The notes beneath the pieces are model-generated. The model searched no databases. It saw only the letters and a program-made list of their open reading frames with translations, and was not told where the DNA came from. Source: Methanothrix sp. (GTDB lineage: Archaea > Halobacteriota > Methanosarcinia > Methanotrichales > Methanotrichaceae). Taken from it: 14,876 nucleotides of DNA. The DNA lies in contig JAAZNX010000026.1 of the NCBI GenBank assembly GCA_012798025.1, forward strand, positions 1 to 14,876, written 5' to 3'. The position numbers were made by a program, and so were the translations under genes. This document shows, one piece after another, positions 265 to 13,175 of the stretch (positions within the stretch are counted from its first letter, which is position 1; every line of letters begins with the position of its first letter).

Positions 265-1014
265 TCAGGCTGCAAGCAGCTTATCGGCGATCTTCTCCAT
301 CTCTGGAATCTGTGGAACCTCTTCTCCTTTCAAGCAGGCCTTGAAGACCTCTTTGTCAAAGGGCAATATCCCGATCACCTTGTTTTTATCTACAAGCTCC
401 AAGAGCTCCTTTGAGTTCTCATCCATTCGGTTTAAGATGAAAAATACCGGCTTTCCAATCTTGTGGCTCATCTCCGAGATCTTGGCGGACAGCTGCACAG
501 ATTCAAAGCTTGGGTCCACCACTACAACGATCTTGTCGCATCCAGCCTCCACACCGCGGCCGAAGTGCTCGATGCCCGCATCCGTATCTACGACAACGTG
601 CTCTCCGTCAGTCTTCAGCTTTTCCAAGAACTCTCGTGCCAGTGCGCCCATGGGACAGGCACAGCCTTCGCCAAAGCTATGAATTTTGCCAATGGCCACA
701 AGCTTTATGCCGTCCTCGCCGACTACAAGCTCTTGAGGTATGTCTTTTATGGAGAACTCATCCAAGATCTTCAGACCTTCTCTCCTTTCGGATCTAAAGA
801 ACTTCATCATTTTTTCACCGAGAGCCTTCTTGCCTCCCAGAGACTCCATGAAATCTTTGGGCTGCTTAAAACCAAGCTGCTTGTAAAGTCCGAAGTTGGA
901 CTCGTCTGTGTCCACTACCAAAACTTCATTTTTTCTTTTCGCAATCTCTTTTGCCATAAGTGCAGAGATCGTGCTCTTTCCGCTTCCACCCTTTCCGCAA
1001 ATAAGTATCTTCAT
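265..1014 (-). CDS. cooC: CooC-type CO dehydrogenase maturation ATPase (MinD/ParA-like P-loop)
   Basis: A 249-residue P-loop ATPase of the CooC branch of the MinD/SIMIBI class. The deviant Walker A motif GKGGSGKST is at residues 7-15, with VDTDESN (34-40) after it and VVVDTDAGIEHFGRG (140-154) as the Walker B/switch region. The CxC pair in EGCACP (Cys118, Cys120) matches the metal-binding and dimerising cysteines known in CooC proteins. In that family ATP-driven dimer changes deliver nickel to the C-cluster of CO dehydrogenase, an enzyme central to acetoclastic methanogens. I chose ATG at 1014 over TTG at 1020 because the AAGGAAGGGA ribosome site is well spaced only from the ATG. The start lies two bases after the stop of the solute-binding protein gene, implying translational coupling. 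A related metal-cluster ATPase cannot be excluded; no CO dehydrogenase genes are in the window. Confidence 0.85.
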   Translation of the reverse strand: MKILICGKGGSGKSTISALMAKEIAKRKNEVLVVDTDESNFGLYKQLGFKQPKDFMESLGGKKALGEKMMKFFRSERREGLKILDEFSIKDIPQELVVGEDGIKLVAIGKIHSFGEGCACPMGALAREFLEKLKTDGEHVVVDTDAGIEHFGRGVEAGCDKIVVVVDPSFESVQLSAKISEMSHKIGKPVFFILNRMDENSKELLELVDKNKVIGILPFDKEVFKACLKGEEVPQIPEMEKIADKLLAA

Positions 1015-2676: not shown

Positions 2677-3777
2677 TTACAGGACACCCGCCACCTTCAA
2701 CGGATGCATTCCAGCATTCTGGAGCATGGCCAGCTTGCCTGAGTCAACCTTGAACTCCTTCAGGGTAGTGACGGCAACTTCGGGCTTGTTCCAGTAATCC
2801 ATCATGCGAACATCCATGACCAGCTTGGACGCCCAGGAGGGGCCCTTCCAGTTGGCAGTTCCTGTCAGACCATACATGGACGTCCAGTTGAATCCCAAGA
2901 CCAGGGCGTCTCCCTGCTTGGCAGTGTCATTCCAGCGGATGTAGATGCCTGCAACATCTGTCTGGTTGTACTTGGCCTTGAGCGCGCTCTTCTCTGCGTC
3001 TGTCAGTGCCATGACGAACATGCCGCTCTTGCCGGGCGTCGCATCCCAGCGAATCTGCATCAGGTCATCCTTGCACCACTGTGGAATGGCAACAACCTTG
3101 TAGCTTTCACTGCTGTTGGTAATTGGCAGTTTATCTTCCATGTATTTGGCCAGCATATAGCCGCTGGTAACTCCTGGACAGAGGTGATCATGGAAGCATG
3201 TGGCCTGCAGGAAGTCAAAGGTAGATTCTGGCTGGGCCCAGATATTGGCAATGCTCACCAGGGAGAATTCATTTCCGTTGAAGGCTGCCTTATTGAAGGT
3301 CGCATTTCCTTCATCAGTATGGTTCAGCATGTAATTGAGATCCACGTTGGCCTTGGAGATCTTGCTGAATACCTGATCGTCGCTCAGGGCTTTGAACTCC
3401 TCCAAGGACTTATTCAAGGATTTTCCGTCGACCTGCATATAGACAGCTTCTCCTGTGGATTTGTTGAAGAAGAAGAACCAGAGAGGCTTAAAATACGGTC
3501 GAAGGACTCGAAGAAGATTGCCATCGCCTTCATTTGCTCCCGTTTCCGTCATGATGCCCTTCAAGGCTCGCTGGGTTGTCTGGTCTCCTATCTGAGCGTA
3601 GCCTGCATCGGTCAGCACTAAGATGTTGCTGTCGCCTTTCTCGAACTTTAGCTGATCCATGGCCGCTTTGGCAGCCTTGGATCCCAACTCCTCCATGATC
3701 GTGCTCTCTGCCAGCGCCACTCCGGGCATTATCGCCAAAATAAGCGCCAGAACAAACTTTTTCTCTTTTATATTCAT
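2677..3777 (-). CDS. Exported FmdE-domain protein
   Basis: A 366-residue protein with a clear signal peptide (residues 1-23, cleavage after GVALA) and a C-terminal FmdE-type domain. The core motif is CFHDHLCPG (Cys194, His196, His198, Cys200), the FmdE signature otherwise written HxHLCPG, followed by GYMLAKYM. A second block, WCKDDLMQIRWDATPGKSGM (about 235-255), resembles the C-x-DAIQ-x-GxTxGK block of FmdE, but the cysteine usual in its middle is replaced. Named after the fmd (molybdenum formylmethanofuran dehydrogenase) operon, FmdE-domain proteins have poorly defined roles and probably bind metal through Cys/His. A signal peptide is inconsistent with a cytoplasmic dehydrogenase subunit and suggests an extracellular metal or ligand-binding role. 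The next genes downstream encode a secreted solute-binding protein and a CooC-like ATPase, which fits metal acquisition (inference). A GGTGA ribosome site precedes the ATG. Confidence 0.82.
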   Translation of the reverse strand: MNIKEKKFVLALILAIMPGVALAESTIMEELGSKAAKAAMDQLKFEKGDSNILVLTDAGYAQIGDQTTQRALKGIMTETGANEGDGNLLRVLRPYFKPLWFFFFNKSTGEAVYMQVDGKSLNKSLEEFKALSDDQVFSKISKANVDLNYMLNHTDEGNATFNKAAFNGNEFSLVSIANIWAQPESTFDFLQATCFHDHLCPGVTSGYMLAKYMEDKLPITNSSESYKVVAIPQWCKDDLMQIRWDATPGKSGMFVMALTDAEKSALKAKYNQTDVAGIYIRWNDTAKQGDALVLGFNWTSMYGLTGTANWKGPSWASKLVMDVRMMDYWNKPEVAVTTLKEFKVDSGKLAMLQNAGMHPLKVAGVL

Positions 3778-6876: not shown

Positions 6877-7959
6877 TCAGATGATGCCCATCTCTGTAAG
6901 CCTATCAGGCAGATATTTCCTGGTCACAAAGTCCAGGCCCTTGCCTGCGAAAGCCTGCTGCTCTGCCTTCTTCTTGAGATCCATCTGCAGCCTGATCTGC
7001 TTTTCCCAGTAGGGTGTATTGAATCTTGGGTCTGAAAGCTCGCTTCTCAGGGCTTGTATATCCTGATCTGTAAGCTTGTCAGTGGACAGGTTATACTCCA
7101 CGATGTCGCTTGGCTGAACGCCTAAGAACCGCGCCGAGGGCGTGACCAGATGCTCGGAGAGATGAGCGCTCTTGATGGCCCCGTAGGCAATGCTGGCGAA
7201 GATGCGATAGGACCAGGGATCGCCATCAGTGAACACTACGACTGGCAATTTCAACTCAGAGTTCAGCTTCTTTATGATGCGGCGTGTGGAACGTGCTGGT
7301 TGTCCCTTGATATGCACCAGTATGGCGCCGAACTCCTCATCGAAACCGTTCTCGATCAGCCGTGCGTACATTCCACCCGTCTCGATGGCCATGACCATTT
7401 TCGCATCGTGGCTCAGGAACTGGATGTTATCCACATTGAATGGAATCTGGTAGCCTGCCTCGCCCACATCCTCCTGGCAGTGCATCTCCCGCTCGCCGCG
7501 CCTTGTCTGCTCCCTGAGGCGCAGCGGCCCGAAGACCGCCGCCCCGTCCTCCTCAGGCCGGATGTGGAAGTCCTCGCGCTGCAAGGCCGTCACGATCTCC
7601 AGATCCTCGATCAGCCTGTCGCTCTCTGCCTGCTCATGGAACTTTGCGATGTCCCAGTTCTCGGAGATGTAATAGATCTCCCTCAGGGTTGAGCCGCGGT
7701 TGTTCTTCAAATGCTCCTTGATTAGCAGCTCCGACAGATAGACAGTCTTGAGCAAGGTCTTGGCACCGCGCACGGTTTTCACGCTGCGCCTCGTCTCCTG
7801 ATCTCCATAGACCCAGACATCGTCCTTAGTGCTGTATTCGATATTGCCCTTCGTCCGAGAAGGCAGGGAGATGTGAGGCACAATGCCTTCCTGGAACTGA
7901 TTATAAAGGTCGCTGGCCAGGTCCAACAGCTTCTTCTGAGTTATCTTGGTTTTTTCCAT
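6877..7959 (-). CDS. top6A: DNA topoisomerase VI subunit A (Spo11-like)
   Basis: A complete 360-residue catalytic subunit of type IIB topoisomerase VI, which makes and reseals double-strand breaks in an A2B2 complex with subunit B to decatenate and relax DNA. The winged-helix/CAP domain has [13 protein letters not shown] (residues 90-102); the second Tyr (Tyr97) matches the catalytic Tyr of the Spo11 family. The Toprim domain shows its Glu in [11 protein letters not shown] (about 192-202) and the acidic pair in [11 protein letters not shown] (about 244-254). Length is normal. The ATG starts two bases after the stop codon of the top6B C-terminal frame. A perfect GGTGATC ribosome site lies within the final codons of that frame, so the two subunits are translationally coupled. 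No defect is visible here, in contrast to its interrupted partner gene. Confidence 0.97.
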
Positions 7960-7961
7960 TG

Positions 7962-8402
7962 CTAGATCACCCTGGCCCCCGTGACGATCTCCGCCTCCAG
8001 CCCCTCGACCACAGGATCTCCAAAAGTGGCCCCGTCCGAGCGAACGCTGTAGCAGAGGGTTGCGCCTTCGCCCGGCCCCAAAGAGAGCTTCCAGTGGTAG
8101 TCATAGACGTCACCCATGGGAACGACCTTGGCAGCCGGAGAGACGGAGACTGCTTCCTGCCTCAGCACCTCATGCAACTTGAAGGATCTCGTCAGATCGC
8201 TGTGATTTTTTATCTCGATCTTGACGGCAGAAAGGCCATTTTGCATCTCTACATGTCGAAACACAAGAAGGTTGCCCATTATCTTGGCCACCACTGGGCC
8301 GATGTCCGGTTCATCTTTTTCCAGGATATCCGAGAGCTTCTTGGCAATTCTGGGTAGGATCTTTCTTATGATCTCCTCCTTCTCCCGGCGCTCAGAGAGC
8401 AT
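7962..8402 (-). CDS. top6B: Topoisomerase VI subunit B, C-terminal part downstream of in-frame TAG
   Basis: These 146 residues are in the same frame as the N-terminal part of top6B, separated only by TAG and five further sense codons (LSRQS). The N-terminal 50 residues ([21 protein letters not shown], then DILEKDEP and PVVAKIMG) resemble the long helix at the end of the Top6B transducer, which in known structures reaches subunit A. Residues 50-146 look all-beta ([30 protein letters not shown]), matching the extra C-terminal Ig-like domain known in methanogen Top6B. The first possible start within this part is ATG at 8402, preceded only by a weak AGG. It could be a separately initiated fragment, the translated tail of a read-through product, or dead sequence. 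The frame has no other stop and shows no decay. It ends with TAG next to top6A. Confidence 0.75.
7965..7971 (-). promoter_or_regulatory. Strong Shine-Dalgarno of top6A inside the top6B 3' end
   Basis: On the minus strand GGTGATC, complementary to the archaeal 16S 3' tail, lies 5 bases before the top6A ATG and overlaps the last sense codon and stop of the preceding frame. It fixes the top6A start and contrasts with the weak signals before top6B and before the internal Met of its C-terminal part. Confidence 0.75.
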
Positions 8403-8417
8403 GCTCTGCCTGCTAAG

Positions 8418-8420
8418 CTA
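8418..8420 (-). other. In-frame amber codon interrupting top6B (codon 460)
   Basis: The triplet TAG follows VARKLRR and precedes LSRQS. Counting from the ATG at 9797 it is codon 460; without it the frame runs 611 codons, a normal length for methanogen Top6B with a C-terminal domain. From memory of the family, this position often holds Tyr (a LRRYLS-type stretch), so a single TAC or TAT to TAG change would explain it. The alternative of pyrrolysine or other recoding is weakened by TAG being used as an ordinary stop in neighbouring genes. Confidence 0.85.
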
Positions 8421-9797
8421 GCGGCGCAGCTTCCTTGCTACATCTTTCAGTCCCAGATCTATCTCTGCCAGAATTTCGGGCACGTCTGCCACAGCATCCT
8501 TGCTCTCTGATGTGAATGGAATATTTGTCGAGGCGATATGCACAAGTAGCACCGCCGGACCGACGGGGACGCCTGAGCCTGTGGGCTGACCGAGAGAATA
8601 GTTCTTCCAAGAGACGCTCTCAACAGCGTGAGTGATTGCACATGCTCCCTGCTGGTAGACTAAAGGAACGCGATTGGCAAATCTGAGGATCTCCACACGG
8701 CCCTCCTTCTCCAGCTCTCCGCCAAATCCAAGGCCCACCTCAACCAAGAAGGGATTGCCTGAGTAAACTGAGACGGGCCTGACTGTTGTGGCTATGAAGT
8801 CCAGGCTGAACTCCTTCTCCAGGCCCGCCTTGATCAGGTCCTCTCCAATTGGAGACAAGCAGTCTACCGGTGGAGACTTCACCCTGATCTGTTTGAAGGC
8901 CGCCAAAAGGCGTTTCGCCTCATCGTGGTTCAAGTCTGCAGGAGGCCGCTCAGGGTCTAGGTCCGCCAAATTGCATAGCTCCTGGGCTGATATCGTGCCA
9001 ATGCTGGAGAATGTCTCCCTCAAGAAGACGCGCAGCTTCTTCTTGTCAGTGTACCTGAGGAGCTTGATCAGCTCGCCAAGCTCAATTCCTGCGGGATGGG
9101 GTTGAATTGCATAGGCCCTCTTGGGCAAGACCTCTGTAGCCCTCTCGAAGACCTCGACGTTGCCTTCCGGCTCCACCAGGGTTATGCGAGCATGCGGGTT
9201 GACTATGGCAGCGCTCTTCAGTGAGCCGAAGACAGACTGGCGACGGCTTCGAACATAAGAGCCCTCCATCTCCATCTCCACTCTAGTGCCTCGAGGCCGC
9301 TCCCAGTCCACATCTTCTGCCTTGAGTATCTCGGGCTCGTTCTTCATTGTATTTATCATGAGCTCGCAATAATGGGCAGGCCTGCCAGGACCGATCTTGG
9401 AGATCACTTTGGTAGGCTTGCCGCTTGTAAGCTGTGAATAAAGCACAGCCGCAGAGATCCCGATGCCCTGCTGGCCGCGGCTCTGGCGTAACGTGTGAAA
9501 ACGCGAGCCGTAAAGCAACTTAGCAAAAACTCTTGGAATCTCATCGGAGACGATGCCAGGTCCGTTGTCCTCTACTATGACCTGATAATAATCGCCGTTG
9601 CGTTTTACCTGCACGAAGATATCCGGCAGTATTCCGGCATCCTCGCAGGCGTCCAGGGAATTGTCCACTGCCTCTTTCACGCAGGTAATGAGGGCGCGAG
9701 GTGCCGAGTCGAACCCAAGTATCTGCCGGTTTTTCTCAAAAAATTCGGCTACAGAGATGGCCTTTTGCTGCTTGGCCAGCTCCTCGGCAATTTCCAT
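8418..9797 (-). CDS. top6B: Topoisomerase VI subunit B, ATPase and transducer part (ends at in-frame TAG)
   Basis: The 459-residue N-terminal part of the ATP-binding subunit of topoisomerase VI. The Bergerat (GHKL) ATPase is intact: N-box [11 protein letters not shown] (41-51), VEDNGPGI (75-82) and the lid/G2 motif [10 protein letters not shown] (108-117). An H2TH region lies about 230-310, then the transducer, with the switch lysine in [13 protein letters not shown] (Lys433). Translation then meets TAG only 26 residues later, before the end of the transducer helices that contact subunit A; family members continue well past this point. If translation really stops here, the product should bind ATP but would pair poorly with subunit A. 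The ATG start fits the family ([19 protein letters not shown] follows at once), but no Shine-Dalgarno is visible; a pyrimidine tract fills the 19-base gap from the Lrp-like gene. Confidence 0.93.
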
Positions 9798-12204: not shown

Positions 12205-12245
12205 GGAGAGCTGTGCGGGGCGAAAGTAATCTATGCCAGGCAGTC

Positions 12246-13175
12246 ATGGAAAGACAGCTGATGCAGATCGCTGCGTGGTTTGGAAAAATTGATCAGGAGA
12301 CGGGTTCCTTCCTCCCAGCAGGAGATACCGGTGCGATGGTCGAGGCGCTACTATGTCAGGAGATACATGCAGCGTGCCCTGCCCAGCAGCCCGATTTGCG
12401 CGCTATGGCGAAGGGTTGCGGATTTGTGGCTGGCGATCGCGAATACAACTTTCTCCTGAAGGAGGTGGCCATGGAGAAGGTCCGCCGCCAGCTCAAACTA
12501 CTGGTTACAGCTGAGCAGGACCTGCTTCAGGCTGTGGAGGCCCTTGATGACCTCAGCAGGGTCGTGAACCTGCTGGACGAACGGCTCTACGAGTGGTCCC
12601 GCCTGCGCCGGCAGGAGATCGTGCACGGGAAAGATCTGGCAGAAGCCCTATCACATGACTCTGTCACAGGCGAGCTGGCAAGAACCATTCTTAGCCTCAG
12701 AAGGTCACATACCGCAATGGAATCTGAGGTGAGCAATACAGTGCAAAGCATTGCCCCCAATCTCTCCAGCCTGGCAGGCCCAATTCTGGCTGCAAGGCTC
12801 ATCTCCAGATCAGGCGGCTTAAGAGTGCTGGCTGAGATGCCCTCCAGCCGCATTCAGCTCATCGGCGCTGAGAAGTCGCTTTTCAAGCATCTGCATGGCC
12901 ATGCCCCTTCGCCCAAGCATGGCATCATCTACCGCCATCCGGCAGTGATCGGTGTCCCAAAGAGGCTCAGAGGCAAGGCGGCCAGGGCTCTGGCTGGAAA
13001 GCTGGCGATCGCCGCCAGGTTGGACTACTACGGCTCCGGGCTTTTGCCTGACCTGAAGGCTGCTTTGGATAGGCGCCTGGCGGAGATAGGCCGCAGTAAA
13101 AGGAGAGCTCCGCAGACGAAGAGCTGGGGATCAGATTTATATTCAAAAGCGCCTTCATACGACCGCAAGGGTTGA
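12246..13175 (+). CDS. nop5: Nop5/Nop56-family box C/D RNP scaffold protein
   Basis: A 309-residue Nop5 protein, which in archaea joins L7Ae-bound box C/D guide RNA to the methyltransferase fibrillarin for 2'-O-methylation of rRNA and tRNA. The N-terminal domain begins with IAAWFGKID (8-16). A long coiled-coil follows (about 75-165). The Nop domain (about 166-275) carries SLAGPILAARLISRSGGL, the signature GAEKSLFKHL (207-216), PKHGIIYRHP (223-232) and GKAARALAGKLAIAARLDYY. It is somewhat short for the family. An in-frame GTG at 12213, with a good AAAGGAG site, would add 11 residues; I prefer the ATG because homologues begin close to the WFG strand. Fibrillarin, normally the next gene in many archaea, is absent here. 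A secreted protein gene follows after 9 bases. Confidence 0.92.
   Translation: MERQLMQIAAWFGKIDQETGSFLPAGDTGAMVEALLCQEIHAACPAQQPDLRAMAKGCGFVAGDREYNFLLKEVAMEKVRRQLKLLVTAEQDLLQAVEALDDLSRVVNLLDERLYEWSRLRRQEIVHGKDLAEALSHDSVTGELARTILSLRRSHTAMESEVSNTVQSIAPNLSSLAGPILAARLISRSGGLRVLAEMPSSRIQLIGAEKSLFKHLHGHAPSPKHGIIYRHPAVIGVPKRLRGKAARALAGKLAIAARLDYYGSGLLPDLKAALDRRLAEIGRSKRRAPQTKSWGSDLYSKAPSYDRKG

Follow-up and report, generated by a model that had tools for sequence, protein, structure and literature searches.

The top6B gene of Methanothrix sp. (GenBank assembly GCA_012798025.1, contig JAAZNX010000026.1) is very probably an ordinary archaeal gene for subunit B of topoisomerase VI, with a stop in place of one stalk tyrosine codon owing to a consensus error or a very recent mutation. 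The stop, a TAG, is present in the sequence as given. As to its origin, we infer that a consensus error in the draft assembly has a slightly better than even chance, and that a real, very recent nonsense allele is a substantial possibility with rather less than an even chance. Either way, one base would have changed to give a nonsense codon, at the tip of the lineage and without any function. The draft status of the genome (1.74 Mb in 234 contigs, 87.65% complete) was counted in favour of the error or recent-mutation reading. Caution is in order: before an architecture is built on one nonsense codon in a single draft assembly, the sequencing reads should be consulted. The contig, 14,876 nucleotides long and numbered C140 in our analysis, was examined over its whole length and is called the window below.

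A single TAG interrupts the top6B frame

Translation of the top6B frame (7962-9797, minus strand, 612 codons) revealed one internal stop, the TAG at codon 460, and no second lesion across the 612 codons. The first-pass annotation, which was made from the letters of the window, had described a frame that stays in register around a single TAG at 8418-8420, followed by a stop-free part with a transducer helix and an Ig-like C-terminus. Both descriptions were confirmed, the former by translation and the latter by Pfam, in which the frame read through matched Topo-VIb_trans at residues 309-473 and Top6b_C at residues 493-606. When the frame was split at the stop, each piece matched its own part of these domains. 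The GHKL ATPase was recognized above the cut-off by HATPase_c (residues 33-121), and the NCBIfam model TIGR01052 (top6b) was above its cut-off with both the read-through frame and the cut piece. The TAG is located near the C-terminal end of the transducer domain, and Top6b_C lies entirely downstream of it. As the sequence reads, the stalk, the Top6A-binding hairpin and the Ig-like domain are not carried on the same chain as the upstream domains, these parts following the TAG. The features of the locus are listed in Table 1.

Table 1. Features of the top6B-top6A locus in the window
Feature	Position	Strand	Description and source
top6B upstream piece, stop included	8418..9797	-	459 aa; ORF list
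Domains of the 459-aa piece			GHKL ATPase, most of the transducer, and H2TH (placed from the alignment with M. mazei Top6B); HATPase_c, Topo-VIb_trans 309-458 (both Pfam), TIGR01052
In-frame TAG, codon 460	8418..8420	-	Corresponds to M. mazei Top6B Tyr462, stalk helix
top6B downstream piece from the ATG of codon 466	7962..8402	-	146 aa; ORF list, Pfam
Content of the downstream piece	7962..8402	-	Remaining stalk helix and Ig-like C-terminal domain (Top6b_C)
top6B own terminator	7962..7964	-	Also TAG; same in the two closest relatives
top6A, intact	6877..7959	-	360 aa; ORF list, Pfam, NCBIfam

The top6A gene sits two bases past the end of top6B, and its strong ribosome-binding site lies within that end, with a pairing energy of -10.3 (all pairing energies were computed against an assumed 16S end). 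Compared with the closest genome, top6A was 98% identical over 360/360 residues, with no stops. The window copy was the sole match to top6B in its own genome.

Covering congeners encode tyrosine at codon 460

A search of the genus gave a top6B match in all 26 genomes, the one studied here included. Among the 25 congeners, 21 reach codon 460, and the remaining four are pieces that end short of the site. All 21 covering congeners have Tyr at this position in unbroken frames, the Tyr codons being split 2 to 19. Alignment to related Top6B had been suggested at first as the check on the stop, and the possibility had been raised that Top6B normally ends here. The same TAG occurs in none of the 21 covering congeners, and the frame continues past codon 460 in each of them.

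Wider collections gave a consistent picture. In a collection of named genomes, 80 loci were kept of 180 encoding a relative, and the 79 covering the site, which overlap the genus set (for example, L053 and G004:C61), carried Tyr in 62, Phe in 15, His in 2 and a stop in none. In a protein collection, 119 of the 120 proteins listed among 8000 scored covered the site, with Tyr in 108, Phe in 7, His in 4 and again no stop. Five of the 120 listed proteins were shorter than 600 residues (440, 462, 492, 510 and 579); Tyr or Phe occupies the site in the four of them that extend to it. Plasmid records yielded four distant haloarchaeal matches, three of them annotated as top6B.

Two known proteins illustrate the difference. 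Top6B of Methanosaeta sp. PtaB.Bin018 (L053) is 97% identical, with top6A and the surrounding genes in the same order, but it has a Tyr codon at the site within an open frame of 611 residues, where the present gene has TAG. Top6B of M. mazei (2q2e_B; the same sequence is found in cryo-EM entries such as 9o0g) was aligned over residues 3-612. It shares the GHKL, transducer and C-terminal parts and has Tyr at the site, but, unlike the top6B described here, it is a single continuous chain with no stop.

The stop lies within the transducer stalk

Counted along the alignment with 2q2e_B, codon 460 corresponds to Tyr462 of M. mazei. In an AlphaFold2 model of the read-through protein, whose scores were modest (mean pLDDT 70.6, pTM 0.39) and from which only this feature was used, a single helix of residues 439-491 spans codon 460. 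The alignment and the predicted structure both place codon 460 inside the transducer stalk helix, towards its N-terminal end, rather than in a linker.

Stalk residues of the M. mazei enzyme that contact DNA are described in a cryo-EM study (PMC13040014, 2026) as R457/K458/K460/H461, K465 and K471/K475. The same source gives at least 25-fold losses in supercoil relaxation for each of R457A/K460A/H461A and K471A/K475A, and a loss of at least 10-fold for L469G. Judged from the alignment, the last residue of the 459-aa product would be the match of H461, and the product would lack the counterparts of K465, L469, K471 and K475 as well as the hairpin. The stalk/WKxY region was likewise found to be required for activity (eLife 2018, PMC5922973). 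By analogy with the work on M. mazei, the truncated subunit should therefore lose activity.

The first-pass description needs one small amendment: with the TAG in the N-terminal portion of the stalk helix, the 459-aa piece is deprived of most of the stalk in addition to the Ig-like domain. In a real allele, ribosomes would halt after 459 residues; the ATPase and H2TH domains would be retained, but the greater part of the stalk, the Top6A-holding hairpin and the Ig-like domain would be missing. Strand passage should then fail, leaving the cell reliant on gyrase. As described in PMC9348778 and PMC11302465, the Ig-like domain is reported solely from archaea that possess gyrase, so that this domain by itself is dispensable in the wider family. 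Essential archaeal functions of topoisomerase VI are termed a prediction in PMC9348778.

The stop is isolated among the compared genes

To place the stop in its genomic context, contigs C1-C60 of the draft genome and the window were searched for matches to the ORFs of the closest genome. At the thresholds used, 88 of 599 ORFs matched, giving 29,281 aligned residues. The sequence covered was about 23% of the genome, with some 88 kb compared, and a rate of stops drawn from it carries little information, given that the stop was the reason for choosing the window. Three in-frame stops were found among the 88 ORFs, all of them TAG, and two of these lie outside real genes. In an RNase J ORF, the TAG is in a 5' extension upstream of the likely start Met121, with Pfam matches beginning at residue 193. 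The other is in an ORF that has no Pfam match and runs antisense to three plus-strand ORFs (391, 129 and 145 aa). Over-use or recoding of amber, which three TAG out of three might have suggested, was thus rejected, as these two are not premature stops of genes. On this comparison, top6B is the one case among the 88 compared ORFs in which a real gene is interrupted by a premature stop.

The reverse survey gave six stops among 86 ORFs (four TGA and two TAA), of which four were at ORF ends and two within one ORF that was 87% alike. A reference-free search for split ORFs found 23 same-frame neighbours in the genome's own contigs (13 TGA, 7 TAA and 3 TAG) and 47 in the relative. These are taken as mostly adjacent genes, and terminator counts were used instead. 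One further frame break was seen in contig C36 (L148, at about 15499, versus L224), where a short G run close to the end of a putatively DUF169-like gene holds a one-base insertion. This insertion suits an error or a mutation equally and is not decisive. CTAG, of which the stop makes one, is scarce in the 402 kb covered by the window and contigs C1-C60, with 353 occurrences seen versus 640 expected from shorter words.

Of the 16 ORFs on the corresponding contig of the closest genome, 13 have matches in the window. Beyond codon 460, one stop was found in that comparison, at residue 3 of an ORF and upstream of the start of the FmdE-domain ORF of the window. The FmdE-domain ORF (2677-3777) is 71% identical to the closest genome, and the other ten aligned window ORFs are 84-98% identical. 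In the converse direction, 11 window ORFs were aligned, and the relative has a stop in two of them, at residue 517 (of 520) and residue 14 (of 320), respectively. The second of the two is the Nop-domain ORF (12213-13175), which begins with GTG here; the ORF of the closest genome matches from 12261, indicating that the true start of the Nop-domain ORF is probably further in.

Genes in this draft genome regularly end in TAG

Archaea that encode pyrrolysine have in-frame UAG within conserved genes, a feature they have in common with the genome studied here. A full-length subunit would result if the UAG were decoded as pyrrolysine or passed by programmed read-through, both in line with a first-pass suggestion, or if a suppressor tRNA read it, and the clean and constrained downstream frame would fit. 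If true, this would be an unexpected case of recoding for this genus. We regard it as improbable, and the searches gave it no support. Unlike in pyrrolysine-encoding archaea, PylS was above the TIGR02367 cut-off in none of the 26 genus genomes, with weak matches far below it in 25 of them; among 14 control genomes, one was above the cut-off. Nor do Tyr, Phe and His at this position in relatives hint at a pyrrolysine site.

The use of TAG also speaks against read-through. In 402 kb of the genome's own sequence, TAG terminates 72 of 373 coding segments (19.3%), and in the closest genome 142 of 629 (22.6%), so that TAG terminators are neither rare nor absent as they would be if amber were reassigned to sense. 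TAG closes top6B itself as well. Detection with RF00005 gave 26 tRNAs in the genome and none in the window; ARAGORN assigned anticodons to 24 of the 26, and to the other two when introns were allowed. A CUA anticodon was found in none of the 26, a count that does not decide on a mutant suppressor because the set is incomplete, tRNA-Tyr being absent too. The tRNA or synthetase required for read-through may accordingly be missing from an assembly that is 87.65% complete. Over 180 bases beginning with the stop, eight differences from the relative with the sense codon were counted, the stop included, and a new element is not evident.

A two-piece subunit B finds no parallel in the relatives compared

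The first-pass annotation had also proposed a two-piece subunit B, in which a 459-aa ATPase chain and a 146-aa chain with stalk and Ig-like parts would be made separately and assemble on Top6A. If this were true, ATP use and DNA cleavage could be coupled through a stalk that is not a single chain. Several features agree with it: each piece is open and coding-like, top6A is intact, an ATG stands 15 bases downstream of the stop, and P0018, a protein from a metagenome, has its called start at that Met. Nevertheless, such an arrangement is highly improbable, since no split at codon 460 was found among the 21 congeners, 79 loci and 119 listed proteins covering the site. Just as doubtful is the route to it, namely re-initiation at the ATG of codon 466 to produce the second chain, with a stalk formed by two meeting helices. 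The cut would fall inside the predicted continuous helix, and the ATG is a plain sense codon in the unbroken gene of the closest relative and is replaced by another residue in most others. Its pairing energy with the 16S end was -3.3 kcal/mol, and 82 of 127 internal ATGs in five window genes were equal or better, indicating no ribosome-binding site above background. Because some annotated starts pair poorly (+1.3 for the start of top6B itself), a weak site leaves initiation possible.

Broken Top6B proteins from other assemblies were considered as well. With the 146-aa piece as the query, 38 proteins were obtained among 70 candidates, and 12 of the 38 were examined. P0033 and P0036 are 84 aa each, on contigs of 42,087 and 25,583 bases, and P0037 is 126 aa, on a contig of 37,470 bases; in these three cases, a contig end is no explanation. 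P0115, one of the 120 listed proteins above, is 510 aa, on a contig of 45,433 bases. All four are broken elsewhere than at residue 460. From the protein sequences, such scattered breaks look like errors or chance mutations, not one conserved split.

P0018, of 106 aa on a contig of 3,686 bases, is the sole result that could favour a split on sequence grounds, as its first residue is the counterpart of Met466. However, it holds a frame-shifted stretch that is shared with P0038, which has Tyr at the codon-460 site. Nearby frame errors are thus the likelier cause of the start of P0018.

No sign of relaxed constraint on either side of the stop

Private changes in top6B were counted in this genome and its two closest relatives. 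Upstream of the stop, the synonymous/nonsynonymous numbers were 41/6 here and 21/6 and 24/5 in the relatives. From codon 460 onward they were 10/7 here, with the stop counted, and 5/5 and 6/7 in the relatives. The whole-gene total here was 51 synonymous and 13 nonsynonymous changes, a count into which changes on the stem leading to the other two genomes also enter; at 4 of the 13 nonsynonymous sites, the remaining congeners side with this genome against its two closest relatives. L010, L017, L019 and L021, which a simple frame search missed, are outside this comparison, and all four are in the codon-460 count. These numbers give no sign of relaxed constraint before or behind the stop. With constraint unrelaxed, the stop would be young or unreal, or the downstream part would still be produced. 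The 51/13 ratio holds no excess of random nonsynonymous changes of the kind expected from a generally poor consensus; this lack speaks against many consensus errors, not against one.

An old, decaying pseudogene in a lineage living with gyrase alone is scarcely credible: a gyrase A gene, truncated by a contig end, is present in the genome, and gyrase is described as having taken over from topoisomerase VI in Thermoplasma (PMC9348778), but top6A is intact, no second lesion has accumulated in top6B and constraint is unrelaxed on either side of the stop. A very recent single nonsense allele is not part of this alternative and was counted under the preferred explanation. The initial argument that the clean downstream frame speaks against old decay was thus borne out. 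The accompanying suggestion of a recent nonsense mutation or sequencing error is likewise the one that agrees with Tyr in all covering congeners, the unrelaxed downstream constraint and the isolation of the stop.

The conserved stretch around codon 460 holds two private changes of this genome, at a distance of eight codons from each other: Asp in place of Glu at codon 452 (8442-8444), and the stop itself.
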